From Roseivivax sp. THAF197b (lineage in GTDB: Bacteria > Pseudomonadota > Alphaproteobacteria > Rhodobacterales > Rhodobacteraceae), in contig NZ_CP045318.1 in NCBI RefSeq assembly GCF_009363255.1, positions 3,089,501-3,153,500 on the forward strand: 64,000 nt of DNA. Reading direction: 5' to 3'. Each line of letters begins with the position of its first letter. Positions within the stretch are counted from its first letter, which is position 1. The translations under genes and the position numbers were made by a program. Below the pieces are notes generated by a model, which ran no database searches, was not told where the DNA came from, and saw only the letters and a list, made by a program, of their open reading frames with translations. Positions 1,015 to 24,802 of this stretch are shown piece after piece.

Positions 1015-1920
1015 ATGCCTGATCCCCTGTTTTTGATTGCGCCGGGCCGCTCCTACACGTCGCTGATCGGCGGCATGATCGGACAACACCCAGAAATTTA
1101 CGGCATGCCGGAGCTGAGCATCTCGCATGTGGAAACGGTCGGCGAGGCGCTGCAAAGCCTGCGCGGCCCACTGGCCTTCGGTCTGGCGGGCATCCTGCGG
1201 CTTCTGGCCGAATTGCACGAAAAGGAACAGTCCGAAGAGGCCGTGCTCCGCGCCAAGGAATGGCTGATGCAGCGCGGCCATTGGCGCATCGCCCAGCTTT
1301 ACGAGCATATCCAGTCGGAAGTCGGCGACCTGCATCTGTTCGACAAGAGCCCGCTCACGGTGTTGAAACCCGAAAATCTGCAGCGCACCGCCGAGATTTT
1401 CCCGAGCGCTTTCTATCTGCATCTGACGCGCAACCCGATCACCACCGGCAAATCCGCGATGTCGCTGCGCAAGGACATCCAATCGGGTAAGGTTTCGGGC
1501 GGGACGATGCAAACCCGGCGCGGCCTCGACCCCGAGATGTCCTGGCTGCGCGGACATCAGAACATCACGAATTTCACGGCTACCCTGCCCGTGGGACAAT
1601 GCCTGCGCATCAAGGCGGAAATGCTGCTGAGCGATCCGGAGAAATACCTGGCCCAGATCTGCGAATGGATCGGGATTTCAAGCGATCCCGCTGCGATCGA
1701 GGAGATGATGCATCCCGAACGCTCGCCCTTCGCGACGCTTGGTCCCCCCTCCGCGCGCTACGGCAACGACCCGAACTTCCTGAAAAACCCGGTGCTCGAC
1801 ATGTCGCGCCTGCAGAACATCCAGGAACCGGACGTGACCATGCCCGCGCCCTGGCGCGATGACCAAAGCTCCCTGTCGGCCGACACGATCAAGCTGGCCC
1901 GGCAATTCGGATACGGATGA
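1015..1920 (+). CDS. Sulfotransferase family protein (PAPS-dependent)
   Basis: 301 residues beginning MPDPLFLIAPGRSYTS. The PGRSYTS loop at residues 10-16 matches the 5'-phosphosulfate-binding loop of sulfotransferases. HLTRNPITTGKSAMSL near residue 140 matches the 3'-phosphate-binding strand and helix with its conserved Arg and Ser. The expected reaction is transfer of sulfate from PAPS to an alcohol or amine. There is no signal peptide, so it is cytoplasmic. The tail carries EEMMHPERSPFATLGP, which recurs in the second sulfotransferase at 3342-4154, so the two are related. The next gene starts four bases after this stop, implying co-transcription. The acceptor is unknown; the neighbouring megasynthase product is the obvious guess. 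Confidence 0.8.
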   Translation: MPDPLFLIAPGRSYTSLIGGMIGQHPEIYGMPELSISHVETVGEALQSLRGPLAFGLAGILRLLAELHEKEQSEEAVLRAKEWLMQRGHWRIAQLYEHIQSEVGDLHLFDKSPLTVLKPENLQRTAEIFPSAFYLHLTRNPITTGKSAMSLRKDIQSGKVSGGTMQTRRGLDPEMSWLRGHQNITNFTATLPVGQCLRIKAEMLLSDPEKYLAQICEWIGISSDPAAIEEMMHPERSPFATLGPPSARYGNDPNFLKNPVLDMSRLQNIQEPDVTMPAPWRDDQSSLSADTIKLARQFGYG

Positions 1921-1924
1921 GATC

Positions 1925-3341: not shown

Positions 3342-4154
3342 TCAGCCGACCAGCGCGCCTTGGCTCAACGCATCGAACCGATGGACATCGCTGGGACTGT
3401 GCGCGCCGTAGGGCCCCGTCCCGGCGAAGAGACCGGCCTCGGGATGCATCATGCGCTGCAGAGAGGCGGCATCCGATGGCAGGGAAAGCGCGCCCGCCAG
3501 CCGTTTGAGTTCCGCGGCCGGATCGGCCAGCAGATCGTCGAGATGCAGATGATGCGCCCGGCTTTCGGGCAGCAATTCGAGCATCTGCTCCATGCCCGCT
3601 TCGGTCAGATCGCGCAGCATGTCGAAATCGGGGATCGCCGTGCCCGCACCGTCCGAGCTGTAGGCGCCCAGAAGGATGGCCGCGGCACCCTCGTGCTGGG
3701 CCATCAGCGCATGATCGTGGCTGTCCGGATCGCGGGTCACGATCAGCAATTCCGCGTCGTGGTACATCTCCACGAGACGCCGCCTTGCGGTTTCGCTCAG
3801 AAGTCCCGAGCCCACGGGCTGCACGATGCGGCGCGGGGCGAGGCGCGCGGTCAGCCAATGGGCGATCTCGGCACTTGGCAGGTGCAGCCGCCCCATCAGC
3901 CAGCGGCGCGCCATCTCGACGGAATGCAGGCTCTGCTCCCCGCCCAGGCATTGCGCAAGCACCCGCAAGAGGCCGTGGATCTGCGCCCCACGCAGCCCCT
4001 GCATTTCGAGCACGATGTCGTAGACGCTCGCCTCCAGCTCGAGATTGAGCGCAGGCACGCCGAACGCGCCCGAATTTCGCCCGATGGCCGAGGCAATGGT
4101 CGGGCCGCCCGCTCCGGGAGCGGCCAGCACCAGGATAGGCGCAGGCGCGGTCAT
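3342..4154 (-). CDS. Sulfotransferase-like protein with degenerate PAPS loop
   Basis: 270 residues starting MTAPAPILVLAAPGAGGPTI. It aligns by eye with the sulfotransferase at 1015-1920: APG loop, then GAFGVPALNLELE against EIYGMPELSIS, and a shared tail, QRMMHPEAGLFAGTGPYGA. The 5'-phosphosulfate loop reads PGAGGPT, not PGRSYTS, so the Arg and Ser/Tyr positions are lost and activity is uncertain. LLIVTRDPDSHDHALMA keeps the Arg-Asp-Pro of the 3'-phosphate site. The ATG at 4154 lies five bases past the stop of the esterase gene, so it is translationally linked to it. A longer in-frame start exists upstream but overlaps that gene. It may be an inactive or substrate-binding partner of its homologue. 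Confidence 0.7.
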   Translation of the reverse strand: MTAPAPILVLAAPGAGGPTIASAIGRNSGAFGVPALNLELEASVYDIVLEMQGLRGAQIHGLLRVLAQCLGGEQSLHSVEMARRWLMGRLHLPSAEIAHWLTARLAPRRIVQPVGSGLLSETARRRLVEMYHDAELLIVTRDPDSHDHALMAQHEGAAAILLGAYSSDGAGTAIPDFDMLRDLTEAGMEQMLELLPESRAHHLHLDDLLADPAAELKRLAGALSLPSDAASLQRMMHPEAGLFAGTGPYGAHSPSDVHRFDALSQGALVG

Positions 4155-4158
4155 ATAG

Positions 4159-5214
4159 TTACAGGCCGTATCCCCGGAAGAATCCCAGCGAGGCGCTGGT
4201 TGCGCTGATCTCACGGCTGACGGCGCCGGTGATGAAGCTGCCCCCCATATCGGAATCGGGCCAGGTGTGGCCGCCCCCCTCGATCTGGTAGAAGCGCAGG
4301 TCGACGCCGTTGGCGCAGTCGTAGCTGATCAGCTGAAGCTTGGTCTCGTCGGCCACGCGATCTTCGCGCGCGCTTGTATTGGCCGGGCCGCAATTGTTGA
4401 TCCGGCTCCAGAAATCACGGGTTTCCGCATTCGACAGGACCGAGCCACCAGCCCCCGCACCCAGCATGCGCGACGATGCGATCTGACCGCCTCCGAAGGG
4501 CATGATCCGATCATCGGTGCCGTTGAAGAAGATCATTGGGCTGGTCGGGGCGGTGTTGCACCGGCTCGCAAGATTTGCCGGTATGTTCGCCGCGATCACG
4601 GCATAGGCACGGAACAGACCGGGCGCATCGCAGGCCAGACGCTGCACGAACATTCCGCCGTTCGACATGCCTGCCGCGAAGGCGCGCGACGTATCCGTTC
4701 CGAACCGCGATCGCAGATCGTTCAGCATCGCGCGGGTGTAGCCCACATCGTCGATACCCGAGGCGGTCGTCTCCCGCCCGTCATTCCATTGCTGGCCGGG
4801 CGAGTTCGGGAACACCGCCGTGAAGCCCTGCTGGCGCGCAAGGCCCGCCAGATCGGTGATGCGTTGCGCTTTCGTGCCGTCGCCCTCGCCGCCATGGAAC
4901 ACGAGGACCACGGACTTGCCGGCCCCGGTGGTGGCCGGATCGACGAAATAGGATCGCTCACGGCCCTGGAACGAGAAACTGACCAATTGCAGGTCGGATG
5001 TCGACGCGCCCGCGCCCACGCCTGCCCCGCCGCCCGCATTGAAGATCCCGCCATCGCTTTGACGCTCGGCGCGGCGTTCTTCGGCGCGCGCCCGGATCGC
5101 ATCCCGGATCGGTGAGTTGGAGACCCCGGGCTCGGGGTTTCGGACCGCAGAGGCGGTGCAGGCCACCAGGAAAACAGCGGTGATCGTCAATGCAGCGATA
5201 CGAAATCGAGACAT
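4159..5214 (-). CDS. Alpha/beta-hydrolase lipoprotein, PHB-depolymerase/feruloyl-esterase type
   Basis: 351 residues. MSRFRIAALTITAVFLVAC is a lipoprotein signal with the acylated Cys at 19. A low-complexity Gly/Ala linker follows, then an alpha/beta-hydrolase domain. The oxyanion segment VFHGGEGDG, the nucleophile elbow GMSNGG (Ser184), the DDRIMP acid region and GGGHTWP (His316) are those of the LpqC/polyhydroxybutyrate-depolymerase-like esterases. It should act in the periplasm or on the envelope on an ester substrate. AGGAAG lies upstream of the ATG. It is 139 bases downstream of the second megasynthase on the same strand and could be read from that operon. Its place there suggests esterification or release of the lipid product, which is an inference. 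Confidence 0.8.
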   Translation of the reverse strand: MSRFRIAALTITAVFLVACTASAVRNPEPGVSNSPIRDAIRARAEERRAERQSDGGIFNAGGGAGVGAGASTSDLQLVSFSFQGRERSYFVDPATTGAGKSVVLVFHGGEGDGTKAQRITDLAGLARQQGFTAVFPNSPGQQWNDGRETTASGIDDVGYTRAMLNDLRSRFGTDTSRAFAAGMSNGGMFVQRLACDAPGLFRAYAVIAANIPANLASRCNTAPTSPMIFFNGTDDRIMPFGGGQIASSRMLGAGAGGSVLSNAETRDFWSRINNCGPANTSAREDRVADETKLQLISYDCANGVDLRFYQIEGGGHTWPDSDMGGSFITGAVSREISATSASLGFFRGYGL

Positions 5215-5353
5215 GGATTATGACTTCCTCTTGATCCTCAGGAGCGACGGTTCAGGGGTCGAGGGTCAGCGCCGCCGATTTGGCGCGACCGTACGCGATG
5301 CGCTTGCAGGCTGTCTACGCCGCCCACGCGACATGGGCCATATCCAGCCAATT

Positions 5354-8300
5354 TCATTCCAGGGCCAGAGCCAGGATGCAATTGCCCTCCTGACCGAGCA
5401 AAACGGAGACGGTTCCGCCCGAAGGTACCGTGACACGGGCTTGGGCCGCGCTTTCGTCAATCGCGCTCAGCACGAAGGCGCGGGGGCGTCCGGTCAGACC
5501 TTCGCCCAGCATCTTTGCCGCCGCCTCCTTGGCGCACCATCCACGCAAGAGCGCGGGCAAGGCGGCGGCATCCGGCGTGCCGGTCAGTCCGAGCCGGCTC
5601 AGTTCCTCGCTGGAGAACGCGCCTTCGGACAGAAGATCGGGCGCGATCCCCTCAGGCGTCTCCATGTCGACGCCGAGCCTGCGGCCTGCGGGCCCGGCCG
5701 CAGCCAGGGCCGCCCCCCCGGCATGGGACAACGTGACCTCGGGCATGGGGCCGGTCACTCCCATCAAGGCGGGGCGGTCAGGCAGCACGTAGGGGCGACC
5801 GGCCTCATCAGCCGCAATCTCGATATCCGCGGGCAGCAGCGCCAGGCCGTGGCTGGCCAGGATGTGCGCGCGTGCGGCTTCCTTCAACGCGATCCGGCCC
5901 ATGATCCAGTCGCGGCGCCGCTTGCCGGTGAACCCCGCAAAGACCGCGCGTTCCGCACCCGACAGGATCGTCGCGGCCAGAACGCGGGTCCAGATCCCGC
6001 CCGCATCGTCGAGAAAGCCCTGCGGAAACGGCGGAACGGACCAGATCGTCACGTCGCCCGGCGCACCATCGAACAGCGCGCGGGCATCATGGCCGTACCA
6101 TGCCTCGCGCGGGCGGTAGCGGGCCTCGTAGAAGCGATGGGGCACATCGAAGAAACGGTCGCGCCAGCCGCGCACCGACAAAAGCCGCGTGCCATCGGGG
6201 CCGAGGCAGTCGAAATCGCCTTCGAGGAAGCGGGCATAGGCAGGATCGCCCACGGGCCGGTCGTCGCCGTCGCGAAAGCCCAGCCGCCCCTTCACGCTGC
6301 CACCCGCGACGGCTTCGGCACGCGCGCCGGGCAGGTCGATCCGGGCAATGCCGGACGGGAACGAACTGAAATCCGTGCCCCAGCCCTGCGCGATCCAGAA
6401 GGCCGTCACGTGCCCCACCTGATCGAGAAGGGCGGGATTGATCAGAAGGCCATCGGGCGCCTCGCCATAGCCGAAGAAGCCATCAAGCGGCAGATCGTGC
6501 AATTCGGCATCGAGCCCGCCCGCATCCCAGCATGTCAGCGCCGCGATGCCCTGAAACAGCGGGCCGTGGAACATGCCCGTCGTATAGAGCGCGTCGTCGG
6601 ACCAGATCGGCGGCTGCGGATGCGCAAGATTGGCAAGCGGCGGGGGCAGGTCGCCTGCACTCAGAACCGCTTCGGCCTCGAAGAGCAGCCCGCCATCTCG
6701 CAGGAGCCGCACCGCGACCCGGTCACCCGTGCGTACGGCTTCGGTGGTCAGGGTGGCGGGGCCGTCGTCAAAGGCGACCCAATCGCGCGCGCGCACGTTT
6801 TCAAGGCGCGTGGGCACTTGCCCGGTCAGCGCGGCCGCCGCTTCGAGCACCATCTCGAGGCTGACAGCGAGCGGCAGAACCGGCAGCGATTGCAGCTCCG
6901 GATCGGTGTCCGACACCATGTCGGCATAGAACGTGTGATGGGCGATGAATGGATCGCCAAGCGGGTCGAAATCGCTTTCTGCAACGAGCGTGTCTTCGCC
7001 GTAATCGATGCGGTGCAAGAGCGGCGGATACCATTCCGAAGCAGCAGGCTCCGCGGCTGCGAGACCGGGTGCTTGTGCCTCTCCCATGGCAACAGCGGCG
7101 ACATTTCCGGCCGTGTCGAGGAAGCGTTGCATCAGGTCGAAATGCCCATGCAACACATCTTGCGGCACGTCCTGCATGACAGATGCCTGCGCTGCGGAAG
7201 GTACAACGGATGGCTGCGGGTCTGCAGGTGTGGGCAGCGCGGCTTGTGTCTGCACAGGTTGTGTCTGCGCGGGTTGTGGCACGACCGGGGGCATGGCGGC
7301 CCCGGTATCTCGGCCAAACGCCTGCGCGATGTCCGCCGCGACCTCTTCGGCCACCTCGGCAGGCAGGCGCATCACGGGCAGCGTGTTGTCGATATGGCGC
7401 GCACGGCGCTTTTTCGGCTCGGCGGCGAGATCAACAGCCTCCAGCCCGCGATCGGAATAGAGCGCTGTTGCATCGACCTCGCGGCCCGCGCACCAGATCC
7501 GGCCCAGCGCCTGCAAGAGATGCGACAGCCCGCCCCGGCGGCGCGAATCGAGCGCGATGGCCTGCGCATCGCGGCCCTTCAGCGTGTCGTCGACAAAGCC
7601 CGTGAGGTTCGACGAGGGCCCGATCTCGACGAACAGACGCACGCCGTCTTCGTAAAGCCGTTCGACCGTTTCTGTGAAACGCACGCGCGACGCCCATTGA
7701 TGCGCGGCCAGCGCGCGGATCTCGGCGGGTGCTTCGGGCATCGGCGCGGCGGTGGCACAGGAATAGACCGGCAGGTGCGGCGCGGTGAAGGCCATGTCCG
7801 CGTAAACGCCCTGCACCTTCTCGGCGACATCGGCGAAAAGCGGCGTGTGATAGGGCCGGTCGAAGGGCAGAAAGGCGGTCATGCCGCCCTCGGGTCGCAA
7901 CTCCTCGGCGACCTCCTCCATCCGGGTGCGGCTCCCGTAGAGCACCGCCTGATGTTCGCAATTGTCGAGCGCCAGGTGCACGTCCGGATCCGCCTCGGTC
8001 AGTGCGAGAATACGCTCGCGCGGCACGCCGCCCACGGTCAGGAGCGCGCCGCCGCCAATCCCGCCCGACGCCTCGATCTCCTGGTAGAGACGGTTGAGGG
8101 AGCGGATGCGCGATGCAAACTCGGCCCGATCTTCGGCGGTGCGGGTGGCGCCGAAGACGCCTGCCGCAGCCAACGCCGAATGCTCGCCCGAGGAATGCCC
8201 CACGACGAGATCGGGTGCGAGGCCCACGCGGTCGGTCACGCCCAGAAGCGCCTGCGCGGCGATGAACATCGATTCCGAGCCAAATTCGAGCCCGAAGAGC

Positions 8301-10222
8301 TTGTCGGCAAGCGCGGCTTCCAGCGGCCCCGACAGCGTGGTCGGCGGCGGAAAGACCGAGGCGGAGGGCGGCGTCTCGCGGTCGGGAAACAGCCCGTCCC
8401 AGAAGTCGAACCAGGATCGCGCCTCGGGGAAGGCGGTCAGGATCTCGGACAGCATGCCCTGATATTGCGCACCTTCGCCCGGAAAGATGAAGGCCATCTT
8501 GCCGGTGACGGGCGTGTCGCTCGCGATGATGCCCGACTTGATGCGGAAGCTGCCCTTGCCCTTGGCGAGACGGTCCGCGGCCTTGCCAAGCTTCTCGATC
8601 AGGTCATCGCGGCTCTCGGCCACGAGCGCCAGTCGCGCCGGGCCCGTGCCACGATGTTCGGCCAGGTAGGCCGCGACCTGCGAGAGATCGGCATCGACAT
8701 GGGTGGCGATGCGATCCGCCAGATGTTGCGCGGTCTCGGCCAGGTGCGCGGGGCTTTCCGCCGCCAGAAGGATCAGCTCCTGCGGCCAATGCGCAGGCGT
8801 CGCACCGGCGGGGCGCGCGGCATCAAGTGCGGCCTCTTCCAGAACCGCATGGGAGTTCACGCCACCGAAGCCGAACGCGTTGACCGCCGCCCGGCGCGGG
8901 GTATCCGGCGCGGAGATCCAGGGCCGCGCCTCGGTGTTGACGTAGATCGGCGTCTCCTCGACCCCGAGCCCGTCGCGCAGCTTGTCCGACAGGGTGGGCG
9001 GCAGGGTCTTGTGATAAAGCGCGAGCGCGGTCTTGATCAGGCCCGCAGCGCCCGCCGCCGGAATGCAATGGCCGATCATCGACTTCACCGAGCCGATGGC
9101 CGTGGTGGGCAGGCCCGAGGCGTCGCGATTGCCGAAGATCGTCTGCAGCGCGCCGATCTCCGTCTGATCCCCAAGCGGGATGCCGGTGCCATGCGCTTCA
9201 ATGAGGCCCGGCGGGGTCGCTTCGGTGCCTGCGTCTTCGATGGCGCGGCGTATGGCCAGCGCCTCCCCTTCGAGACGCGGCGCGAGCAGGCCCGACCCCT
9301 TGCCGTCGCTCGATTGGCCCGCCCCTTTCAGGATTGCGTAGATCCGGTCGCCGTCGCGTTCCGCATCGGCACGGCGCTTGAGCGCCAGAAGGCCCAGCCC
9401 TTCGCCCAGAAGCGTGCCATCCCCGCCTTCGGAAAAGGGCCGCACATGGCCATTGCCCGACAGCGCGCCCAGTTGGTTGAAGACCATGTAGACCTCGGCC
9501 GAGATCGAGGCATTGACCCCACCCGCCAGCATCAGGTCGGACCGGCCATGGCGCAGCTCCTCCATCGCCGACAGAACCGCGAGGATCGAAGACGAGCAGG
9601 CCGCGTCGAGGATGTAATTCGGCCCGTTCAGGTTGAGTCGGTTCGCAATGCGCCCCGACATGACGTTCGGCACGAGGCCCGGCGCGATATCGGCGTTGAA
9701 GGGCGGCAGCTGCTTGGCCATCTCGGCGCGGACCCGGTCGAGCGTCGCCGCATCGGCCCAGGGCATGAGTTGGCCCAGAAGTTCGCGGGTCTGATCGAGC
9801 ACGACACCGTGCTGCACGACGGCGGCATTGCCGCGATGCAGGTAGGTGGAATGGCCGACGATGACCCCGGTGCGTTCGTGATCCCCGTCGAGATAACCCG
9901 AATCCGCCAGCGCCGCGCGAGCGATCTTGAGAGCGAGGAACTGGTCGGGCTCCGAGCCGTCGACGGATGTGGGCATCACGCCCAGCTCGGCAGGATCGGC
10001 GGCGAAGGCCTCTCCGAGATAGCCGCCGCGCGCGGTCGGGATATGCGTGGGCCCCTGCCCGTTCAGGTAGCGCTCGGCCTCCCATTCGGGGGGCGGCGCG
10101 CCGACGAAATCGAGCTTGCCGCAGATATTGGCCCAGAAGCGGTGAATATCGTCCGAGCCCGGAAACATCCCGGCCATGCCGATGATGGCGATGTCCCGGT
10201 CGGTCGCAGGCGTTCTGGTCAT
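5354..10222 (-). CDS. Type I PKS/PUFA-synthase-like megasynthase: KS-AT-DH-PPTase
   Basis: 1622 residues. KS at about 10-470 has a complete triad: DAACSSS (Cys209), EAHGTG and GHCIPAAG. AT at about 590-880 has GHSSGE near 674. A helical segment, GHFDLMQRFLDTAGNV, follows near 1030. A hot-dog DH lies near 1085-1300, with PVLPLAVSLEM and a PALLDQVGH acid motif. A fused Sfp-type phosphopantetheinyl transferase is near 1430-1620, with GVDMETPE and WCAKEAAAK. There is no ACP, so it must work on the single ACP of the upstream partner, which its transferase can activate. The ATG overlaps the partner's stop by four bases (ATGA) behind GAGG, giving coupled translation and likely equal amounts. PfaA/PfaC-type PUFA synthases are the nearest known relatives, but the second KS here keeps its Cys, whereas PfaC has a chain-length-factor domain. 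Confidence 0.85.
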   Translation of the reverse strand: MTRTPATDRDIAIIGMAGMFPGSDDIHRFWANICGKLDFVGAPPPEWEAERYLNGQGPTHIPTARGGYLGEAFAADPAELGVMPTSVDGSEPDQFLALKIARAALADSGYLDGDHERTGVIVGHSTYLHRGNAAVVQHGVVLDQTRELLGQLMPWADAATLDRVRAEMAKQLPPFNADIAPGLVPNVMSGRIANRLNLNGPNYILDAACSSSILAVLSAMEELRHGRSDLMLAGGVNASISAEVYMVFNQLGALSGNGHVRPFSEGGDGTLLGEGLGLLALKRRADAERDGDRIYAILKGAGQSSDGKGSGLLAPRLEGEALAIRRAIEDAGTEATPPGLIEAHGTGIPLGDQTEIGALQTIFGNRDASGLPTTAIGSVKSMIGHCIPAAGAAGLIKTALALYHKTLPPTLSDKLRDGLGVEETPIYVNTEARPWISAPDTPRRAAVNAFGFGGVNSHAVLEEAALDAARPAGATPAHWPQELILLAAESPAHLAETAQHLADRIATHVDADLSQVAAYLAEHRGTGPARLALVAESRDDLIEKLGKAADRLAKGKGSFRIKSGIIASDTPVTGKMAFIFPGEGAQYQGMLSEILTAFPEARSWFDFWDGLFPDRETPPSASVFPPPTTLSGPLEAALADKLFGLEFGSESMFIAAQALLGVTDRVGLAPDLVVGHSSGEHSALAAAGVFGATRTAEDRAEFASRIRSLNRLYQEIEASGGIGGGALLTVGGVPRERILALTEADPDVHLALDNCEHQAVLYGSRTRMEEVAEELRPEGGMTAFLPFDRPYHTPLFADVAEKVQGVYADMAFTAPHLPVYSCATAAPMPEAPAEIRALAAHQWASRVRFTETVERLYEDGVRLFVEIGPSSNLTGFVDDTLKGRDAQAIALDSRRRGGLSHLLQALGRIWCAGREVDATALYSDRGLEAVDLAAEPKKRRARHIDNTLPVMRLPAEVAEEVAADIAQAFGRDTGAAMPPVVPQPAQTQPVQTQAALPTPADPQPSVVPSAAQASVMQDVPQDVLHGHFDLMQRFLDTAGNVAAVAMGEAQAPGLAAAEPAASEWYPPLLHRIDYGEDTLVAESDFDPLGDPFIAHHTFYADMVSDTDPELQSLPVLPLAVSLEMVLEAAAALTGQVPTRLENVRARDWVAFDDGPATLTTEAVRTGDRVAVRLLRDGGLLFEAEAVLSAGDLPPPLANLAHPQPPIWSDDALYTTGMFHGPLFQGIAALTCWDAGGLDAELHDLPLDGFFGYGEAPDGLLINPALLDQVGHVTAFWIAQGWGTDFSSFPSGIARIDLPGARAEAVAGGSVKGRLGFRDGDDRPVGDPAYARFLEGDFDCLGPDGTRLLSVRGWRDRFFDVPHRFYEARYRPREAWYGHDARALFDGAPGDVTIWSVPPFPQGFLDDAGGIWTRVLAATILSGAERAVFAGFTGKRRRDWIMGRIALKEAARAHILASHGLALLPADIEIAADEAGRPYVLPDRPALMGVTGPMPEVTLSHAGGAALAAAGPAGRRLGVDMETPEGIAPDLLSEGAFSSEELSRLGLTGTPDAAALPALLRGWCAKEAAAKMLGEGLTGRPRAFVLSAIDESAAQARVTVPSGGTVSVLLGQEGNCILALALE

Positions 10223-13200: not shown

Positions 13201-16200
13201 GATCGCCGCGCGCGGTGCGGGGCGCGCCATCGGGGGCCGCGCCATCGGGCGCTGCGGCGCAGCCTGGGTCACTTGCGCGCCGAGGCTCGCAAGCATCACC
13301 CGTTCCTGGGTCTCGAGGAAGCGCGTCATGGTGGCCTGGAATGCCGCCATGATGCTGTCCCCCTCGTAATATTGAGTGGGATGGACCGCCTCGCTCTGAG
13401 ACAGGTCCTGTGGAGAGTGATCCATGATGGACTCCTTTCGCGGTCGGGGTGGTCGGGCCATGGAAGGCGCTGTGGCAGCGGACCCGGTCGGAGATTGCGT
13501 CGATTGCGCGGTCGGCGCTGCGACGGGCATGGCAGCAGCGGCAGCGCGTGCCGTTTTGCGCGCTTCGATGTCTTCCAGCGTCAGCACCGGCAGCGGCGGG
13601 CTGCCCGCCTGTCGCGCGCCGGAGCCGTTGAGCATCCAGATGTTCTTGCCGGGCACATCCTCAGCCTCGACCGGGCCTTTCAGCGCCACGATCTGCGCCT
13701 CGCGCCCCCGGAAGAGGGCAGCCAGATTGAGCGCCGCGCCCTCGGACAGAAGCGTGCCGACCGCCGTGAGCAGGCCCTTCAGCCCGCCCTCTTCGTCATC
13801 GGTAGTGATCGCCGCATGATCCTGTCCGGCCAGGCATTGCCGCACCATCGCCGCATGGGCCGATTTCGGCCCGACGCTGAGGAAAACGCGCGCGCCATCT
13901 TCATGCATCGCCCGCACTTCCGACAGGAATTCGACCGGCCGCGCCAATTGCCGCGCCAGCGTCGTGCGGATCTTCTTCGCGCCGGCCTCGTAGGGTTCCG
14001 CGGTGGTGTTGGCATAGACCGGGAAGCGCGGATCGGAGACCGGCATCTTGTTGAGGTAGCTCGCCAGACGTTTCTCCGCAGGCGCCACGATGGGCGAATG
14101 GAAGGCCGCACCCACGGGCAGCGGGCGGAACGAAAGGCCCTGCGCTTCGGCGCGTTTGCCAGCCTCCTCGATGGCGGCGCGGGTGCCCGACAGGATCGAC
14201 TGCTCGGGCGCGTTGTGATTGGCGATGACCACATCCGGCAGCCCGTCGATCAGCGCCTCGATCTCCGCGCGTTCGGCGCGCACGGCGGCCATGGTGCCGA
14301 GATCAGCGCCCTCGCCCGCCTCGACCATGAAGCGGCCCCGCGCTTCGGAAACGCGGTAGAGGTCATCCTCCGCGATGGCGCCTGCCGCATGCAATGCCAC
14401 GAACTCACCATAGCTGTGGCCCGCGGCCATATGCGCCTCGACACCCAGATCCGCGAGGATTGCCCAGAGCCCGGCCTCGACCGCGCCCAAAGCGGGCTGG
14501 GCCACATCGGTGCGCGTCAGGTTTGCGGCAGCGGCTTTCCGCGCCTCGGCATCATAGACCGCTTCGGGCAGGATCGCCCGGCTGAGCGGCTGACCGAGTG
14601 CTGCATCGGCGCGCGACAGTGCCGCGGCCATCTGCGGCATCAGCACCGCGAGATCGGCCATCATGTCGGGATACTGACTGCCCTGTCCGGGGAAGATCAG
14701 CGCGAGTTTGCCACCATCTGCGAGGCGCGGCGTCTCGGACCAGCTGGCCCCCGGCGGGACCGGCGTGCCGGTCTCAAGCGCCGCGAGCAGCGCCGACATC
14801 TTCTCGGGCAGTTGCGCGGGATCCGAGATCACGAGCGTGGCTGTCAGGCCCTTCTTCGGCGCCGCCTCCCAGAGCGAACGCGCGAGGTCTGCAATCGCGG
14901 GCGACCAGCCCTGTCCCAGCCGGTCGAGCTGCGCGCGGATCTGGCTGGCCACGCCCTTGGCCGACGCGCCGCGCCAGACCAGCAGCTCATGCGGCCAGCG
15001 CGTGCGGGCGGCAGGGGCCAGCGCGGGGATCGCGCGCTTGGCGTCATGTTCCTCGAGGGTGACGTGGAAATTCGTGCCGCCGAAGCCAAAGGCCGACACG
15101 CCCGCGCGGCGCGGGCCATTCCCCGAAAGCCAGGGGCGCGGCCGATCCACGAGGTAGAGCGGCAGCTCTTCATCGAGAAGCTTCTCGTTCGGTGCACCAG
15201 CACGGCCATGGGGCGGCAGCACACCATGATGGCAGGCGAGCGACGCCTTGATCAGACCGGCAATGCCCGCGGCAGCCTTCGTATGGCCGATCTGGGTCTT
15301 CACCGAGCCGATGGCGGCCGAACGCGGGGTCGCGCCCGCATCCTCCAGAAGCCGCGTCACCGTTTCCATCTCGGCAGTGTCGCCGACCACGGTGCCGGTG
15401 CCATGCGCCTCAAACAGGCCCACGGTTTCAGGCCCGTAACCCGCCATGTCGTAGGCGCGGGAAAGGGCGCGGATCTGCCCGTCGGGATGCGGCGCGGTCA
15501 TCGACTTGGCCTTGCCGTCCGAGGAGCCGCCGACACCCTTGATCACCGCATAGATGCGGTCGCCATCGCGCTCGGCATCCGCCAGCCGCTTCATCGCGAT
15601 CATCGCGAGGCCTTCGGAGATGACGATGCCATCCGCCCCGGCCTCGAACGAGGAACAGCGCCCGCGCGGGGAAAGCGCGCGCGTCTTCGAGAAACACAGA
15701 TAGCCGAACGGGCCCTGCACCGTGTCGATGCCGCCCGCGAGCACCATGTCGGACCGGCCCGTCTCCAGCTCCAAGACGCCCTGGTAGACGGCGGCCAGCG
15801 ACGAGGCGCAGGCCGCGTCGATCGTGTAGTTCACGCCGCCGAAATCGAGCCGGTTCGCCGTGCGGCCCGCGGCCACGTTCAAGAGGATGCCCGCGAAGCT
15901 GTCCTCGGTCCATTCGGGCAGGAAGCCCGCCGCCTGTTCGTCAATCTCACCCAGAAAGCGCGGCATCTCGGAGCGGACAGCGTATTGCGCGCCCACATCG
16001 CCCGCGCCACCCGACGCGCCGAGGATCACGGAGGTCTTGAGCCGGGGGCCGGAGACGCCCGCCTCCCCCGTCAGACCCGCATCGTCGAGGCAGCGCCGCG
16101 CCACGTCGAGAGTCATCAGCTGCAACGGATCAAGCGCCTTGATCGCGCGCGGCGGGATGCCGTAGCGCATCGGATCGAAGGGCATATCCTCAAGGAACCC

Positions 16201-18432
16201 GCCCCATTTCGAGTAGATCTTGTCCTTGACGGTCGGATCCTCGTCGAAATAGATCCGCCAATCCCAGCGATGGCGCGGGATCTCGGAGATCGCAGAGCGC
16301 CCGTCGAGCAGGTTTTCCCAATAGGCCTTGAGGTCATTGGCACCGGGCAAGAGCGCGGACATGCCGACGATAACGATATCGGCAGGTTCGGGCGCTTTGG
16401 GCCGGGCGTGCAGCAGCTCGGGCTCGGACGCACCGGCGGCAATCTCGCGCACCAGCGCGGCACCGTCTTCGCAGATCTCCGAATGCAGGCCCTTCACATT
16501 GGTCAGACCGTCGCGCAGCTGCGCCACCTGCCCGATCATGTACATGCCTTCCTGTTTCTGCCGCGCGACGGGCACCTCCAGCAGGTCATCGCCCTGCCGT
16601 TCGGTCGCCTTCGAAGCGATGCGCAGACGGCCCAGGGTCAGGCTTTCCAGCTCCTCGCGCATGTCCTCGGCGCCCATGCCCTGGGCTTCGAGCGCGCGGC
16701 GCTTCGCGGCGAATTCCTCGGCAAAGGGCGTCATGGCGGCGCGGGAGGCATGGCCCGCGCCGGTCTCAAGCGTGACGGTCTCGGTGCAGTCGAGCAGGGT
16801 CTGCTGGAAGGTGTCGGCGATGGCGCCGTCGCGGACCGCTTCTTCGGTGAAGAGATACGCCGTGCCGATCAGCACGCCGACCTTGATGCCGCGCGCGGCC
16901 AGGGGGGCCGCGAAGGCCGCCACGATCGCCGCCGAGGTCGCATCGTGAATGCCGCCCGCAAACAGCACCCGGATTTCGGAGGCGGTCTTGGCGTCGTCCA
17001 CTTCCTCCAGAAGGGTGCGCACCATGTTGTCCCAGAGGACGAGCGAGGACATCGGGCCCACATGGCCGCCGCATTCGCGCCCCTCGAAGACGAAGCGCCG
17101 CGCGCCCTGTTCGAGGAACATCGACAGAAGCCGGGGTGACGGCACGTGCAGGTAGGACGGGATGCCATCGGCCTCGAGCGCCACAGCCTGATCCGGACGC
17201 CCGCCTGCGATGAGCGCGAAGGACGGGCCGTGCTTCAACGCGACGGCGACCTGATCCTTGACGAGCTGCGAGGGCGCGAATCCCAGAAGGCCCACGCCCC
17301 AGGTCTTGCCCTTCAGCCGCTCGGCCACGTCGGCCAAGAGCTTGTCCGCCTGACCGGGACGCATCAGCGCCAGCGCGATCATCGGCAGCGCGCCGCCCTC
17401 GGCCACGGATTGCGCGAAGGGGGCGACGTCAGAGACCCGCGTCATGGGGCCCTGCACGATGGGATAGGTGGTGCCGTGATCCTGCGCGAGCGGACAATCG
17501 GCGCCCAGGATATCCGTGTCGGCGGCGCGCGCGACCGCATCCGCGCTGACCTTCAGAAGGGCCGCACAAAGCCGCCCAAGACCACCGTACCGGCGCGCAA
17601 GATCGGGCGCGAAGGCCGCGGCCTGCCCCATGGGGGCCAGTTGGCCCGCGCCGATATCCCAGCCGAACGCCGCTTCCGCGACGCCGTCCTGCGACGCCAC
17701 CTCGGATTGCGCGATAACTGCGCGCAAAGTGGCCGCCGCGTTCCGGCCCGGCATCTCGACACCGCGCCAGCGGATCCCGGCCTGCCCTTCGATCAGGGCT
17801 GTCTCGCCGCCCGTCATGCGGGCCAGCACGGGGGCGACGCGATCCGCAAGCGCGCTTTCGCGCAGCATCAGGCATTGATCGTCGAGCACGATACCCGCCG
17901 CACCACCCGCGCGCACGGCACCCGCCGAATGCATCCCGATCCCGCCGCGAATGAACACGGGCGCGAGACCAGCCGCGCGGGCTTTTTGCAACAGGATGAA
18001 GCTGGTGGCTTCGCCGACCCGGCCGCCCGCCTCGTGGCCTTTGAGGATGACGCCCTGGGCCGCGATCGGTCCCGTCAGGCGGTCGTCCCAGCTTATGGCT
18101 TCAAGGATCACGCGCAGACCCGCCGCACGCAGGGCCTCCACCTCGGTCGGCGCATCGAAGGCCGCCGCAGCGGGAAGGATCACCGTGGCCAGACCGCGCG
18201 CGCCGTAGTCGCCCGCGATCTCGGTCGCCAGGGCGGCGTCGGACAGGGCAACACCCCAGCCCGCAGGCGCGCTTGCCGCCAGATGGTCGAGCGCGTCGGT
18301 CAACACGCCCTCCGGCAAGGGCAGCTCGGCGTTCAGAACCCCAAGATGCCCGGCTCTTTGCGCGGCGACCGCGAGCGCGGGATCGCCGGTGCCGGCCGGG
18401 GTCAGAACGATGATGCCGAATGCATGATCCAT
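10219..18432 (-). CDS. Type I PKS/PUFA-synthase-like megasynthase: flavin barrel x2-KS-AT-ACP-KR-DH
   Basis: 2737 residues, ATG behind GGAGTG. Residues 1-330 and 340-640 both look like nitronate-monooxygenase/PfaD flavin barrels: KGHEAGGRVG with RGGIGMHSAG, then GRECGGHVGPMSS with FAGGIHDATS. The second is the likely enoyl reductase. KS at about 680-1120 has DAACASS (Cys875), EAHGTG and GHTKAAAG. AT at about 1245-1530 has GHSYGE near 1339. A helical linker near 1690, a Pro/Ala linker at 1735-1805 and one ACP (GIDSIKR, Ser1839) follow. KR at about 2125-2400 has TGGARGIT and YATAN (Tyr2311). DH at about 2455-2700 has HRIGETPVLP and DPGLLDAVAQ. These cover all steps of full reduction or dehydration. 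Product inferred as a long acyl chain or polyketide. PUFA synthases normally carry several tandem ACPs and a separate PfaD. Confidence 0.87.
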   Translation of the reverse strand: MDHAFGIIVLTPAGTGDPALAVAAQRAGHLGVLNAELPLPEGVLTDALDHLAASAPAGWGVALSDAALATEIAGDYGARGLATVILPAAAAFDAPTEVEALRAAGLRVILEAISWDDRLTGPIAAQGVILKGHEAGGRVGEATSFILLQKARAAGLAPVFIRGGIGMHSAGAVRAGGAAGIVLDDQCLMLRESALADRVAPVLARMTGGETALIEGQAGIRWRGVEMPGRNAAATLRAVIAQSEVASQDGVAEAAFGWDIGAGQLAPMGQAAAFAPDLARRYGGLGRLCAALLKVSADAVARAADTDILGADCPLAQDHGTTYPIVQGPMTRVSDVAPFAQSVAEGGALPMIALALMRPGQADKLLADVAERLKGKTWGVGLLGFAPSQLVKDQVAVALKHGPSFALIAGGRPDQAVALEADGIPSYLHVPSPRLLSMFLEQGARRFVFEGRECGGHVGPMSSLVLWDNMVRTLLEEVDDAKTASEIRVLFAGGIHDATSAAIVAAFAAPLAARGIKVGVLIGTAYLFTEEAVRDGAIADTFQQTLLDCTETVTLETGAGHASRAAMTPFAEEFAAKRRALEAQGMGAEDMREELESLTLGRLRIASKATERQGDDLLEVPVARQKQEGMYMIGQVAQLRDGLTNVKGLHSEICEDGAALVREIAAGASEPELLHARPKAPEPADIVIVGMSALLPGANDLKAYWENLLDGRSAISEIPRHRWDWRIYFDEDPTVKDKIYSKWGGFLEDMPFDPMRYGIPPRAIKALDPLQLMTLDVARRCLDDAGLTGEAGVSGPRLKTSVILGASGGAGDVGAQYAVRSEMPRFLGEIDEQAAGFLPEWTEDSFAGILLNVAAGRTANRLDFGGVNYTIDAACASSLAAVYQGVLELETGRSDMVLAGGIDTVQGPFGYLCFSKTRALSPRGRCSSFEAGADGIVISEGLAMIAMKRLADAERDGDRIYAVIKGVGGSSDGKAKSMTAPHPDGQIRALSRAYDMAGYGPETVGLFEAHGTGTVVGDTAEMETVTRLLEDAGATPRSAAIGSVKTQIGHTKAAAGIAGLIKASLACHHGVLPPHGRAGAPNEKLLDEELPLYLVDRPRPWLSGNGPRRAGVSAFGFGGTNFHVTLEEHDAKRAIPALAPAARTRWPHELLVWRGASAKGVASQIRAQLDRLGQGWSPAIADLARSLWEAAPKKGLTATLVISDPAQLPEKMSALLAALETGTPVPPGASWSETPRLADGGKLALIFPGQGSQYPDMMADLAVLMPQMAAALSRADAALGQPLSRAILPEAVYDAEARKAAAANLTRTDVAQPALGAVEAGLWAILADLGVEAHMAAGHSYGEFVALHAAGAIAEDDLYRVSEARGRFMVEAGEGADLGTMAAVRAERAEIEALIDGLPDVVIANHNAPEQSILSGTRAAIEEAGKRAEAQGLSFRPLPVGAAFHSPIVAPAEKRLASYLNKMPVSDPRFPVYANTTAEPYEAGAKKIRTTLARQLARPVEFLSEVRAMHEDGARVFLSVGPKSAHAAMVRQCLAGQDHAAITTDDEEGGLKGLLTAVGTLLSEGAALNLAALFRGREAQIVALKGPVEAEDVPGKNIWMLNGSGARQAGSPPLPVLTLEDIEARKTARAAAAAMPVAAPTAQSTQSPTGSAATAPSMARPPRPRKESIMDHSPQDLSQSEAVHPTQYYEGDSIMAAFQATMTRFLETQERVMLASLGAQVTQAAPQRPMARPPMARPAPRAAIPAAPAPAAPPAQPASAPAPVSAPAPAAAAPAPQPAPAAPAPAPTPAPAATAAPAGALDRDGISALLLEIVEDRTGYPSDMLDMDQGIEADLGIDSIKRLEIVGALIKALPAGQSAAATPAGETLNAQKTLGAIVDTLVEHLEKEGATAPFDPAGAENAELQTQSRPPRFVTSPEAQEGPGPAALPSGTYLLTEDARGVARLLAEKIAAAGGTAEIMPAAAAESMSAPLAGLVHLAPLDAVPVTLDAGISAWRTALSQSEKSAYALMRTHADSLKSGRVLLASAMGGMFGRDGASGLMLSGGATGLAKSLREEWPDTRSRAVDLDPALTPERMAEILFAELAASEGRIEVGYPGGARHIFRSLPAEVADLPAADLPKAATILATGGARGITAECLRPFARAGARLVLVGRSALPGAEDAETVNLSDAGELRRALASAAKASGQPVKPADLERRIAAILRDREMRANLADLTAQGAAAVEYRICDMSDPDAVAALLADLGPVHGVIHGAGVIEDRRIEDKTPESWDRVVETKVMGAMALAAGLDAAPPAFFAMFASVAGRYGNSGQTDYATANEVLNRLAASLSARWQGTRATAINWGPWDATKFGAGMVSDAVRLKFEAQGVTLVPAEGGAEAFFDEMLRGPRAATEVTLGAGPWERHETDRAGGDPAPALAMAPSLVPASQSATPLLADPRPEPAPKGGTAIPRRLTLAGDPWLGAHRIGETPVLPLACAAELCAEAASVIWPDWRVAGLSDLRALAGLRLEGEADRELLVVGNSAEHGDPTGFSARVDLKAAEPPHRGHYRASAILRPHGSGLPEGAEELALDVMMARAKASPVSARRAYREMLFHGPEYQRVKDLEGLDQGAVVARVAPSPQGAFGAGTDWLIDPGLLDAVAQMAWVWSIVTREAPALPNAIERLIPMGDGVPARMILAMRPDAQAPQVLCDAVIVDEADQPVFLVQGLECTSDPGLARFCGFKGEILRDVIGNPRAEAAE
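13423..13440 (-). promoter_or_regulatory. Internal ribosome binding site and in-frame ATG inside the large synthase
   Basis: Within the 2737-residue gene the coding strand reads AAAGGAGTCCATCATG, a strong Shine-Dalgarno six bases from an in-frame ATG (codon 1670). The site sits exactly between the AT domain and the helical linker before the ACP. Initiation here would give a 1068-residue protein with ACP, KR and DH only. It may be the scar of a gene fusion or a working second start. No interruption of the reading frame is seen. Confidence 0.5.
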
Positions 18433-18488
18433 GGGGTCACTCCGAAACCGGACCGTGCGACGGGATCGCACAGATCCGGGCTCCTAGG

Positions 18489-19208
18489 TCAGGTCGTGGT
18501 TTTGCCTTTCGAGGCTGCGGGCGGCGGTGCGGTCTCCGCGATGTCGATGGTCTCGGCATCCTCGATCCCGTCATCGGGCGTGCCCGATCCGGCTTCGAGC
18601 GCGTCGATGCGCGCCTGCAACTTCTCTATCCGCTCTTCCAGAACCTGGCGCAGCTTGTCGGGGTCACGGTTTGCAGCCGCGCCGCCGCCTGCACGGGCAC
18701 CGCCGCCCAGGCCGCCACCGAGGCCGGCACCAAGACCGGCACCGCCCGCAGCACCGCCACCTGCGCGTTGCTGCATCAGCTTGCGCAGAAGAGGACGGTC
18801 GCCGCCGCCTGCGGCACCCGCACCGGCCCCGCCGCCCAAGCCGCCACCAAGACCGCCGCGCCGCCCCGCGGCACCGCCTGCGCCCTGCCCGGCCCCTGCA
18901 CCGCCGCCTGCGGCCCGTGCCTGGAGGATTTCACGGAGCTTGCCGCCACCGCCTGCACCGGCCGCGCCGCCACCGAGGCCCGCGCCGCCGCCCAGTCCAC
19001 CACCCAGACCGCCGCCCGCGCCACCGCCCGCACGAGCTTTCAGGAGTTCGCGCAGCTTGCCGCCGCCGCCCGCGCCGCCAGCACCGGCGCCCGCTCCGCC
19101 ACCGGCACCGCCCTGGCCCAGAAACTGCCGCGGCCCCTCGCCGGCGCCGCGCCGTTCCCGAAGCCGCTGCAACGCTTCGCGCCGCTTGTCACTTTCTGAA
19201 TCCGCCAT
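18489..19208 (-). CDS. Glycine-rich protein with repeated short Leu/Arg helices
   Basis: 239 residues, about half of them Gly and Ala. Charged helical units are spaced through Gly-rich linkers: ALQRLRERR, KLRELLKAR, KLREILQAR, LLRKLMQQR and KLRQVLEER. The last continues into a heptad coil, IEKLQARIDALEAG, and an acidic tail follows. It has no signal peptide, membrane segment or enzyme motif. The architecture, evenly spaced near-identical helices on flexible tethers, suggests a scaffold or multivalent docking protein. The start has GAGG upstream. The gene sits between the small AlkP-fold gene (44 bases) and the first megasynthase (56 bases) in one operon, so a role in organising the synthase or its membrane site is plausible but unproven. 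Confidence 0.7.
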   Translation of the reverse strand: MADSESDKRREALQRLRERRGAGEGPRQFLGQGGAGGGAGAGAGGAGGGGKLRELLKARAGGGAGGGLGGGLGGGAGLGGGAAGAGGGGKLREILQARAAGGGAGAGQGAGGAAGRRGGLGGGLGGGAGAGAAGGGDRPLLRKLMQQRAGGGAAGGAGLGAGLGGGLGGGARAGGGAAANRDPDKLRQVLEERIEKLQARIDALEAGSGTPDDGIEDAETIDIAETAPPPAASKGKTTT

Positions 19209-19252
19209 CCTGTCCCTCTTTCGTAATGTGCCGCCCCACCTGGCAGCGCTGT

Positions 19253-20107
19253 CTAAATCAGTCGTGCCTTGCGGGGCCGCGGCCCCTCCACGAATGGCAC
19301 CTCGAAAACCTTCTCGTGCATGACCGGGCCATGGCCGAAATATCCCTGCTCGCCGAATGCCTCGCCATGATCACCCATGATCATGAACCACGTGTTCGAC
19401 GGCGCCTTGTCGTAAAGTGCGTCCAGCAACCCATCGAGATATTCGACGCAGCGGATCTGCTGCTCATGCAGGCCGCGCATCACGTCGTCGCTGAAAAATT
19501 CCTCAACGGACATGGCACCCGCGCCGCGCCCGCCGGCGTCCCCGCCTGCCGCCAGCGTCTTGGCCACCCCGTGCAGCCCGGAGATATGCGGCAGCGCATC
19601 GTCCCGAAGCATGTAGGGGTAATGCGTCTCGCCGAGATTGAAGAAATGGAAGCTGGGATGGTCGCGCGAAAAGCTGACCTCGTCGATCATGCCCGCGAAA
19701 TCGTTGTGGTTGGACATCAGCTTGTAATCGTCGAACGCGTTCGAGATCACCGTTTGCGGGTTCAGAACCGGCATCGAAACCCGGCCCACCGTGCGATAGC
19801 CGTATTGGCGCAGCATGCCCGGAAGCGACAATTGCGGCAGGAACGTCTCGAAGGCGAGATCGGGGATCTCGAGCCGGTCCGACCACTTGGCGAAGTCTTC
19901 CTTGTAGACCTCGGACGCGTAGACATTGGGCGGCGAGGTGTGCGGCACCAGCCCCATCATGAAGGTGTAATGCGACGGCGCCGTCCAGGACGCGTAGGAA
20001 TATCGCTTCTCGATCTCGCCCAGCTTTCGCAGGTTGGGCGCCTTGGCGGCCAGCACGGAGTCGAAACGGCAACTGTCATAGGTGATGAGGACAAGGTTGC
20101 GCGGCAT
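19253..20107 (-). CDS. Small sulfatase/alkaline-phosphatase-fold hydrolase or transferase
   Basis: 284 residues starting MPRNLVLITYDSCRFDS. ITYDSCR gives the first metal-binding Asp. WTAPSHYTFMMGLVP is the nucleophile region, with Thr or Ser in place of the formylglycine motif CxPxR of true sulfatases. MGDHGEAFGEQGYFGHGP followed by EVPFVEGP supplies the second metal site and the typical C-terminal core. This fits the sulfatase-like AlkP branch that includes phosphoglycerol transferases, though it is shorter than most. It has no signal peptide or membrane anchor. It follows the TPR gene by 13 bases and precedes the Gly-rich gene by 44. It probably handles a phosphate or sulfate ester linked to the megasynthase product. 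Confidence 0.75.
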   Translation of the reverse strand: MPRNLVLITYDSCRFDSVLAAKAPNLRKLGEIEKRYSYASWTAPSHYTFMMGLVPHTSPPNVYASEVYKEDFAKWSDRLEIPDLAFETFLPQLSLPGMLRQYGYRTVGRVSMPVLNPQTVISNAFDDYKLMSNHNDFAGMIDEVSFSRDHPSFHFFNLGETHYPYMLRDDALPHISGLHGVAKTLAAGGDAGGRGAGAMSVEEFFSDDVMRGLHEQQIRCVEYLDGLLDALYDKAPSNTWFMIMGDHGEAFGEQGYFGHGPVMHEKVFEVPFVEGPRPRKARLI

Positions 20108-20120
20108 CGTGTGGCCCCCC

Positions 20121-21269
20121 TCAGCCGGCGAGCAAGCGTTGGCGTCCGCCGCGGCGCGACCGTCGCGCACCGCCTCCGGCCGCAGCCCCGTTCTCGCCGG
20201 AAAGCTCGGACATGCGGGCCTTCATCTCGTCGCGCAGCTTGACCGCGAAGGCCGCCTTGTCGTCCGGCACGGCCTCGGTGGCGAGCGCGACAAGATCGGG
20301 GGCCTTTTCCGCGATGGATTGCGCGTTCAGGATCGCGGCGCGGTAGGTGTCGATCGCATCGTCGTACCGCTCCATCCCGAGGAAGACATCGCCCATCACC
20401 TTCTGGACATAGCCCATGCGACGCACTTTCGGGCCAAGCCGCTGCAGCATGTCCAGCGCTTCGGCGTGACGGCCCGTCCGCGCACGGGCCTGCGCCGCGC
20501 GCAGCGTCGCGCGCAGGTTGTTGGGTTTGAGCTCAACCGCGCGGTCGAAGGACTTCACCGCCTTGGCGTGCTCCTCCATCTTTGCCTGCACCGCGCCGAT
20601 CGCCTGGTGCACCGGGGACTTGTCGGGCGCGAGCGTTGCGGCGCGCTGGAGCGCCTTCAGCGCATCCTCGAGCTCACCGGCTTTCATGTGCATGCGGCCC
20701 AATTGGTAATGCGGCAGCCACAGATCGGGCTTCATCTGGGTGACGCGGTCCAACTCGGCCTTGGCCGCGTCGATATCGCCTTCCCGCCCGAGGGCCGAGG
20801 CGAGCGACAGACGCAGCCGGATGTCCTGAGGATTGTGCAGAACCGCATCGCGCAGAACGCCGAGCGCGTCTTCGGTGCGGCCCGTATCCGCCATGATGCG
20901 CGACATGCGCAGATAGGCGGTGGAGGCCGACGGATCGAGCGCGACAGCGGTTTCAAGCTCCGCGAGCGCCTCTTCTGGAGCGCCCAGCTTCTGCAGCATC
21001 TGCGCGCCGAGAACCTGAGCGGGCACGAGGTCGGGCTTCAGAACCAGCGCCTCCTGGAAATGTTCCAGCGCGCGCTGATGATCCTCGAACTTGGCGAAGA
21101 CCTGGCCCAGACCGAGATGGCCCACGGCAAGTTCGGGCTCCGCTTCGAGCAGATCGGTGAAGATCTGCTCCGCCGTTTCGAGATCATTCTGCTTGAGCGC
21201 GACCATCCCCTCTTTGAAGCGCTCCCGCAGCAAAGCTTGGTTGTCCCGAGCCAAGCGACGATTTTCCAT
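20121..21269 (-). CDS. TPR-repeat protein heading the megasynthase operon
   Basis: 382 residues. From about residue 15 to 340 it is a run of tetratricopeptide repeats: ALKQNDLETAEQIFTDLLEAEPE, then EDHQRALEHFQEALVLKPD and EEALAELETAVALDPS, among others. Roughly nine units are visible. The C-terminal 25 residues are Gly/Arg-rich and basic (GGGARRSRRGGRQR). It has no signal peptide. TPR proteins act as protein-binding scaffolds, and here the partners may be the Gly-rich protein or the synthases. ATG follows GGGGAGAG. It is the first gene of the leftward operon, behind two candidate promoters. Confidence 0.85.
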   Translation of the reverse strand: MENRRLARDNQALLRERFKEGMVALKQNDLETAEQIFTDLLEAEPELAVGHLGLGQVFAKFEDHQRALEHFQEALVLKPDLVPAQVLGAQMLQKLGAPEEALAELETAVALDPSASTAYLRMSRIMADTGRTEDALGVLRDAVLHNPQDIRLRLSLASALGREGDIDAAKAELDRVTQMKPDLWLPHYQLGRMHMKAGELEDALKALQRAATLAPDKSPVHQAIGAVQAKMEEHAKAVKSFDRAVELKPNNLRATLRAAQARARTGRHAEALDMLQRLGPKVRRMGYVQKVMGDVFLGMERYDDAIDTYRAAILNAQSIAEKAPDLVALATEAVPDDKAAFAVKLRDEMKARMSELSGENGAAAGGGARRSRRGGRQRLLAG

Positions 21270-24642: not shown

Positions 24643-24788
24643 CGGTGTTGCGCGATCTCTCTGGGACAATCGCGCCCAAGGAACGCCATAAAGCTTAAAA
24701 TCTTGCGAAGACACGCCAAGCTTCTGGAATCGCTCCATTCGCGGCCGCGTTGCGCGAGAAGTTGACGTGGCGCGCGGAGTGAAAATCA

Positions 24789-24802
24789 TTTGCGCGCGTA
24801 AA
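24789..24802. promoter_or_regulatory. Operator-like palindrome before the LacI-family gene
   Basis: TTTGCGCGCGTAAA is palindromic apart from one base pair. It shares CGCGCGTAAA with the site ahead of the polyol-binding-protein gene. It lies 45 bases before the regulator's start, so autoregulation is likely. Confidence 0.5.

Follow-up and report, generated by a model that had tools for sequence, protein, structure and literature searches.

This analysis concerns a 64,000-nucleotide stretch of Roseivivax sp. THAF197b DNA (contig NZ_CP045318.1, positions 3,089,501 to 3,153,500; hereafter the window), in which two overlapping minus-strand open reading frames (ORFs) encode the megasynthases P2 and P1, with sulfotransferase (ST), hydrolase and beta-propeller genes beside them (Table 1). 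The likely P1 start, ATG at 10222, overlaps the P2 stop as ATGA. Both proteins were searched against Pfam and NCBIfam profiles, and their linkers were then searched as cut-out pieces. The searches confirmed the inventory that an original prediction had drawn from the bare sequence: two ketosynthases (KS), both with Cys-His-His, two acyltransferases (AT), one ketoreductase (KR), two dehydratases (DH), here of polyketide synthase (PKS) type, and a phosphopantetheinyl transferase (PPTase) of their own. A single acyl carrier protein (ACP) and the lack of a chain-length factor (CLF) were equally borne out, with one PF00550 match in all and no CLF-type KS in P1 or P2. The PfaD-like enoyl reductase (ER), said to be fused in front, was recovered as a FabK/NMO match preceded by a degenerate FabK-like region, so that two flavin-ER-like domains, of which the first is degenerate, seem to make up the front of P2. 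A structure model of this front part, made from a 6-row alignment, was poor (pLDDT 53.4) and was not used. No FabA-type DH was matched in P1 or P2 at E<=1e-3, nor on the cut-out pieces at E<=0.1. A decaying locus was considered and rejected: both synthase ORFs are open, with their catalytic residues in place.

Judging from its sequence, P2 holds the full domain set needed to extend a chain iteratively from malonyl-CoA with complete reduction, and the PPTase of P1 is predicted to be one that can arm the P2 ACP. In the P1b' motif region this PPTase reads VTLSH, with Thr at the second place of the hShxH motif (taken from PMC3098273), and a WxxKEA PPTase motif lies near the C-terminus in 109 of 120 P1 relatives among the matches listed.

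The two ATs differ at the malonyl-binding Arg. Across 152 aligned AT domains, this residue is present in 17/17 P2-type and 15/15 PfaA-model domains and in none of the 120 of P1 type, where the column is occupied by Leu (86), Met (22), Ile (6) or other residues (6). PfaB, reported to be a terminal long-chain acyltransferase, is also without this Arg (PMC12895367). Because of the contrast between the ATs and of the parallel with PfaB, these data suggest that P2 loads malonyl and that P1 transfers long chains.

Table 1. Coordinates of the genes and domains in the window (res, residues of the protein; PAPS, 3'-phosphoadenosine-5'-phosphosulfate)
Feature	Position	Strand	Remarks
Type I phosphodiesterase/AlkP-fold gene, 5' part	1..437	-	continues left of window; orthologue L031:8619-10202
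CurM/OLS-like ST, PAPS loop GRSYTS	1015..1920	+	intact; stand-alone ORF, outside 3342-21269
Beta-propeller protein, synthase partner	1859..3310	+	likely start 1925
Degenerate ST without RSxTS PAPS loop	3342..4214	-	paralogue of 1015-1920; below Pfam cut-off
PHB-depolymerase-like esterase	4159..5214	-	below NCBIfam cut-off; N-terminal lipobox-like LVAC by eye
P1 megasynthase KS-AT-DH-PPTase	5354..10315	-	1653 aa ORF; likely start 10222
P1 C-terminal PPTase	5441..5677	-	res 1547-1625
P1 PKS-type DH (H1126, D1298)	6326..6997	-	res 1107-1330
P1 AT (GHSSGE), PfaB-like, Leu in malonyl-Arg column	7565..8491	-	res 609-917
P1 KS (C240, H375, H416)	8990..10198	-	res 40-442
P2 megasynthase ER'-ER-KS-MAT-ACP-KR-DH	10219..18471	-	2750 aa ORF; likely start 18432
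P2 PKS-type DH (H2474, D2648)	10306..11148	-	res 2442-2722
P2 KR	11404..12069	-	res 2135-2356
P2 sole ACP found, Ser1852, LGIDSIKR	12874..13008	-	PF00550 at res 1822-1866
P2 AT, malonyl-type, GHSxGE, S1353 and R1378 kept	13828..14697	-	res 1259-1548
P2 KS (C888, H1023, H1063)	15208..16380	-	res 698-1088
P2 second ER, FabK/PfaD-like, EGRECGGH	16450..17472	-	res 334-674; FabK E 6.3e-19; NMO 1.1e-14
P2 first flavin-ER-like domain, degenerate, KGHEAGGR	17836..18420	-	res 18-212; FabK model E 8.3e-6
Gly/Ala-rich protein with KLRELLxAR helix repeats	18489..19208	-	conserved in near group
AlkP-fold STM4013-like hydrolase, TAPSH	19253..20170	-	over Pfam Sulfatase cut-off; best NCBIfam match STM4013 family
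TPR protein	20121..21269	-	in 12 of 19 loci

Relatives and the single-ACP branch

In a protein search for P1 relatives, 2007 of 7988 scored candidates matched at E<=0.001, and genomes were drawn from the family Rhodobacteraceae (394), the phylum (398) and the genus Roseivivax (9). Since near full-length P1 relatives with 40 to 76% identity occur in other genomes, the locus is not a chance assembly. P1 is found at E<=1e-150 in 14/394 family genomes, and in 6/398 phylum genomes, two of which hold the KS-AT part only (36 to 37%); both counts include the window's own genome (G000). None of 656 plasmid records had a P1 match over 80% of the query, and a scan of viral contigs gave no stretch matching the locus.

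One of these genomes, G067, is Dinoroseobacter shibae DFL 12, as a 4000-base stretch is identical to NC_009955.1 20001-24000. To this strain Shulse and Allen (2011) assigned a 'Type O' secondary-lipid synthase cluster, their description of which carries no product (PMC3098273). Gloeobacter violaceus and Parvularcula bermudensis hold further members of Type O. Because all three PfaA-model matches of the genome at E<=1e-60 fall in one locus, we take that locus to be the Type O synthase. Below, loci of the window's branch are called near type and D. shibae-like loci far type. In the KS tree the window branch is sister to the D. shibae group, the P2 sequences dividing into near and far groups (100/99 and 100/100) that match a split in ACP number and that stand together at 100/97. 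Next outward come the Type P strain Beijerinckia and Methylosinus (98/93), the tool flagging outgroup branches as long; canonical PfaA lies apart, and the window KS falls outside its clade.

The ACP motif occurs once in the loci of G000, G004, G005, G237, G397, G197, G411, L011 and G380, and also once in G477 and G777, which belong to another class of the same phylum. It occurs two to four times in six far-type loci (G067, G144, G291, G007, G339 and G174); the cut-off loci L014 and G345 have one motif each. A DH on P2 was absent from D. shibae, the sole far-type P2 scanned, at E<=0.01, and one was present in G477. On these motif and domain counts, the window branch is marked by one ACP and a P2 DH, in contrast to the multi-ACP far type.

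The neighbourhood is conserved as well. Searches by tblastn at 1e-10 around 19 loci, several of which end at contig ends and one of which (L014) lacks P1, recovered an ST and a propeller gene in 16 loci each, a phosphodiesterase-fold and an alpha/beta hydrolase gene in 14 each, and esterase, TPR and AlkP genes in 13, 12 and 10 loci, respectively; the conserved neighbourhood extends to two genomes outside the class. The ST, AlkP and TPR neighbours on which the original prediction had relied are therefore kept. From all these comparisons we conclude that the locus is a real, conserved biosynthetic cluster, and a newly recognised, single-ACP variant of the known but unexplained Type O lineage. 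It had been presented as a stand-alone oddity; it is instead a branch, characterised by its single ACP, of a lineage already described in 2011 (PMC3098273). One-ACP loci beside multi-ACP sisters would provide a natural test of why synthases of polyunsaturated fatty acids (PUFAs) have tandem ACPs.

Both types occur within the genus Roseivivax, the near type in G000, G004 and G005 and the far type in G007. The culturable Roseivivax halotolerans carries a near-type cluster. In this last congener (L048-L049, G007:C46:1-40000), the far-type cluster, with a P1 40% identical, sits at the same site as in the window, with LacI and solute-binding genes shared with the window, at 90 to 97% identity, on its flanks; a whole cluster has apparently been swapped at one site. 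Separately, a second large KS-AT protein is encoded in the window's own genome (G000:C1:3572039-3574159, a 2190 aa frame), and similar frames are present in many genomes with P1 relatives.

Sulfotransferase kinship and the candidate product

The new and useful point of the analysis lies in the kinship of the STs. For the intact ST of the window, the sole sequence relatives in the PDB at E<=0.001 are the STs of OLS and CurM (5e-24 and 7e-21), and the D. shibae cluster ST likewise matches these two only at E<=0.1. The OLS and CurM STs were compared with two sets, the cluster STs of 13 loci and the PF13469 proteins encoded in G000, G067, G144 and G477. They score 54 to 99 bits against 15 intact cluster STs and up to 30 against the degenerate ones, whose PAPS loop is lost in 7/7 near-type loci seen. 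Against the non-cluster STs, eight of nine scores are 22 bits or less; the ninth protein, from G144, reaches 71 to 81 bits and branches with the D. shibae cluster ST. In a tree of all rows, the cluster STs and this G144 protein form a group (97/98) that adjoins OLS and CurM at a moderate 87/63, and a tree made without the G144 protein and the window's degenerate ST gave 98/94 for the CurM/OLS grouping. Grouping of the cluster STs with CurM/OLS is thereby favoured, not proven.

The STs of CurM and OLS put a sulfate on a beta-hydroxyacyl chain, and hydrolysis by a thioesterase (TE), with decarboxylation and desulfation, yields a terminal alkene (PMC3903477, PMC6274090). Because of the ST kinship, of this chemistry and of an APS kinase in the genome that can supply PAPS, we propose a version of it acting in trans. 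The Type O product was uncharacterised in 2011 (PMC3098273), and among the titles and abstracts listed in searches of the open-licence literature there is no later report of a product for Type O or the single-ACP branch; to this question the ST kinship brings concrete, testable chemistry.

Our tentative preference, which falls just short of an even call, goes to a synthase of very long chains in which STs acting in trans sulfate the beta-hydroxyacyl chain, either for an olefin-forming elimination or with the sulfate retained. A very long acyl chain (C20 or longer), mostly saturated, would probably be built on the one ACP, with P1 acting in late elongation and acyl transfer; saturation is expected because KR, ER and PKS-type DHs are present and no isomerase-type DH was found. 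The stand-alone CurM/OLS-like ST, together with a second one encoded left of the window, would then use PAPS to sulfate the beta-hydroxyl of the ACP-bound chain, a step for which the arguments seem evenly balanced. The cluster alpha/beta hydrolase might free the chain with a decarboxylation that eliminates sulfate, leaving a terminal alkene, which we find doubtful, or might free it with the sulfate kept, which we find slightly more doubtful still. The beta-propeller, phosphodiesterase-fold and short-chain dehydrogenase/reductase (SDR) proteins would modify the product, and the HlyD-type protein may export it. That all of this holds at once, namely a Pfa-type iterative synthase joined in trans by CurM/OLS-type STs, a malonyl-built very long chain beta-sulfated on the single ACP and termination by sulfate elimination, is rather unlikely. 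If true, however, it would constitute a de novo pathway to long-chain terminal olefins in proteobacteria, with a new propeller protein that nearly always goes with the synthase and may work on the chain once sulfate has activated it.

Several observations weigh against this preferred reading. The cluster STs stand alone, whereas those of CurM/OLS sit in cis, fused to ACP and TE, and a full reducing loop would leave no beta-hydroxyl, save where the DH is skipped in the final cycle. The CurM/OLS grouping at 87/63 is moderate, not strong, and long branches were flagged. The cluster alpha/beta hydrolase resembles many esterases, and kinship to the CurM TE did not emerge among the best 60 of 291 matches. 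Around the G144 synthase, no ST was found in the 40 kb read, although a CurM-like ST (81 bits) lies elsewhere in this genome; G144 may keep its ST unlinked. Finally, the best PDB alignment of the window P1 AT agrees with a missing malonyl Arg, but the second best (3qat) puts a P1 Arg in that column, both alignments having low local confidence. As a separate observation, the CurM-like ST of G144 (L092, G144:C6:171975-172646) heads an 820-aa frame and is perhaps fused to another domain.

The modified, possibly sulfated lipid of the original prediction survives as one of two live readings. In its full form, STs would act on a hydroxyl of the finished lipid, giving a stably sulfated long-chain product whose head groups are trimmed or transferred by the AlkP-fold and esterase proteins; this could be so, though we consider it somewhat unlikely. 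Two or three ST genes are present in 9/19 loci, PAPS can be supplied, AlkP-fold, phosphodiesterase, esterase, methyltransferase and HlyD genes lie nearby, and the AlkP-fold protein exceeds the Pfam Sulfatase cut-off. Sulfatases have a Cys at the nucleophile position that becomes formylglycine, however; the AlkP-fold protein lacks it and has Thr there, its best NCBIfam match being the STM4013 hydrolase family. Moreover, the intact STs are most like the CurM/OLS enzymes, in which sulfate is a leaving group.

The label 'PUFA-synthase-like' was right in that the locus encodes a self-contained, Pfa-related megasynthase, and misleading as to the product. P2 reaches 999.3 bits on the PfaA model TIGR02813, narrowly under the curated cut-off of 1010.1, a FabK/PfaD-like ER is fused to it and the P1 AT is PfaB-like, all of which would fit a true PUFA synthase variant. 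With a single ACP, no CLF, no FabA-type DH found and a KS outside the PfaA clade, we tend to hold such a variant as very improbable, and a PUFA product as unlikely. A polyketide, or an alkyl chain passed to another enzyme as in Type P or enediyne systems, is improbable too. The nearest outside kin of the KS is the synthase of a Type P strain, and in Azotobacter the chains made by Type P systems are passed on to type III PKSs (PMC3098273); among the scanned proteins of the window and its left flank, however, no type III PKS was found. The KS-AT-DH-PPTase order of P1 recalls the enediyne PKSs, which share this layout, but their KS is far away in the KS tree, on a long branch.

Neighbouring genes and comparison with known systems

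Like P1, the propeller family occurs in 14/394 family genomes (at E<=1e-10), 13 of them shared with the 14 of P1; both are thus present in 13 of the 15 genomes holding either one (Fisher p 3e-22, uncorrected for kinship). Two genomes break the pattern: G174, with a contig of 10.5 kb, and G026, in which only a PPTase-like piece (57%) occurs; the propeller homologue of G026, a genome without full synthase, is 54% identical (G026:C3:712112-713533). The structure model is a confident propeller (pLDDT 90.7), with fold matches tied among so many propellers that no function, a CylK-type alkylating one included, was drawn from them. A role as PAPS-independent arylsulfotransferase was dismissed, with one chance-level Pfam match only at E<=0.1 and no sequence match to such an enzyme. 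In D. shibae (L042:9341-11992), the propeller forms one protein with an extended SDR, which matches the HpnA and OleD models at scores under their cut-offs.

Left of the window (L051) lie the type I phosphodiesterase, hydrolases, an SDR, further propellers, a methyltransferase, another ST and HlyD. The Gly/Ala-rich protein has a coiled-coil-like end and a repeat number that differs between loci; of 12 loci inspected, 7 have it. In D. shibae, a protein encoded upstream of P2 (L043) appears by eye to be FkbH-like, of the HAD type, from DLDETFWQG, which we take to be the motif of this family, and could load a glyceryl unit. On the other side of the cluster, a bacteriophytochrome-type histidine kinase (PAS_2, GAF, PHY, HisKA, HATPase) is encoded at 22393-25872 (-); the + strand ORFs at 21859-24765 are apparently antisense artefacts.

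The two-protein enzyme of the window is a relative of the omega-3 fatty acid synthases. With PfaA/B/C/D it shares the KS-MAT-ACP-KR order of PfaA, a C-terminal PfaA-model match and a FabK/PfaD-like ER in P2, and a PfaB-like AT in P1. It differs in having the ER fused in front, one ACP in place of a tandem and the PPTase fused to P1, and in lacking the CLF; the KS-CLF didomain of PfaC is absent, and its FabA-type DHs were not found (E<=1e-3). The tandem ER-like domains of P2 recall, as a resemblance only, the ER heterodimer described in thraustochytrids (PMC13311796).

Compared to CurM/OLS, the likeness resides in a near full-length match of the intact cluster STs, with the PAPS loop kept, and in a KR-bearing synthase and a hydrolase alongside, while the window ST is a separate gene and not an ST-TE fused to a KR-ACP module. 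No FAAL was present among the scanned proteins, no search aimed at FAAL having been made. Type P (ars) systems make the C22-26 chains of phenolic lipids in Azotobacter, and Beijerinckia is a Type P strain (PMC3098273). The plasmid locus of Beijerinckia indica, taken as Type P, is the nearest KS outgroup, but its neighbours are two genes with KAS III C-terminal domains, presumably type III PKSs, of which none was seen in the window cluster.

The closest system remains Type O. Far-type loci differ by their two to four ACPs and, in D. shibae, by a P2 without DH, compared to one ACP and a P2 DH in the window branch, and the best segments are only 37 to 39% (P1) and 43 to 44% (P2) identical, a short P2 segment of G174 reaching 51%. 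Nevertheless, D. shibae has an ER-KS-AT-ACP-KR protein followed by a KS-AT-DH-PPTase protein, the latter in the very order of P1, its KS forms the sister clade, and its synthase is surrounded by the same propeller, phosphodiesterase-fold, alpha/beta hydrolase, ST and TPR neighbours.

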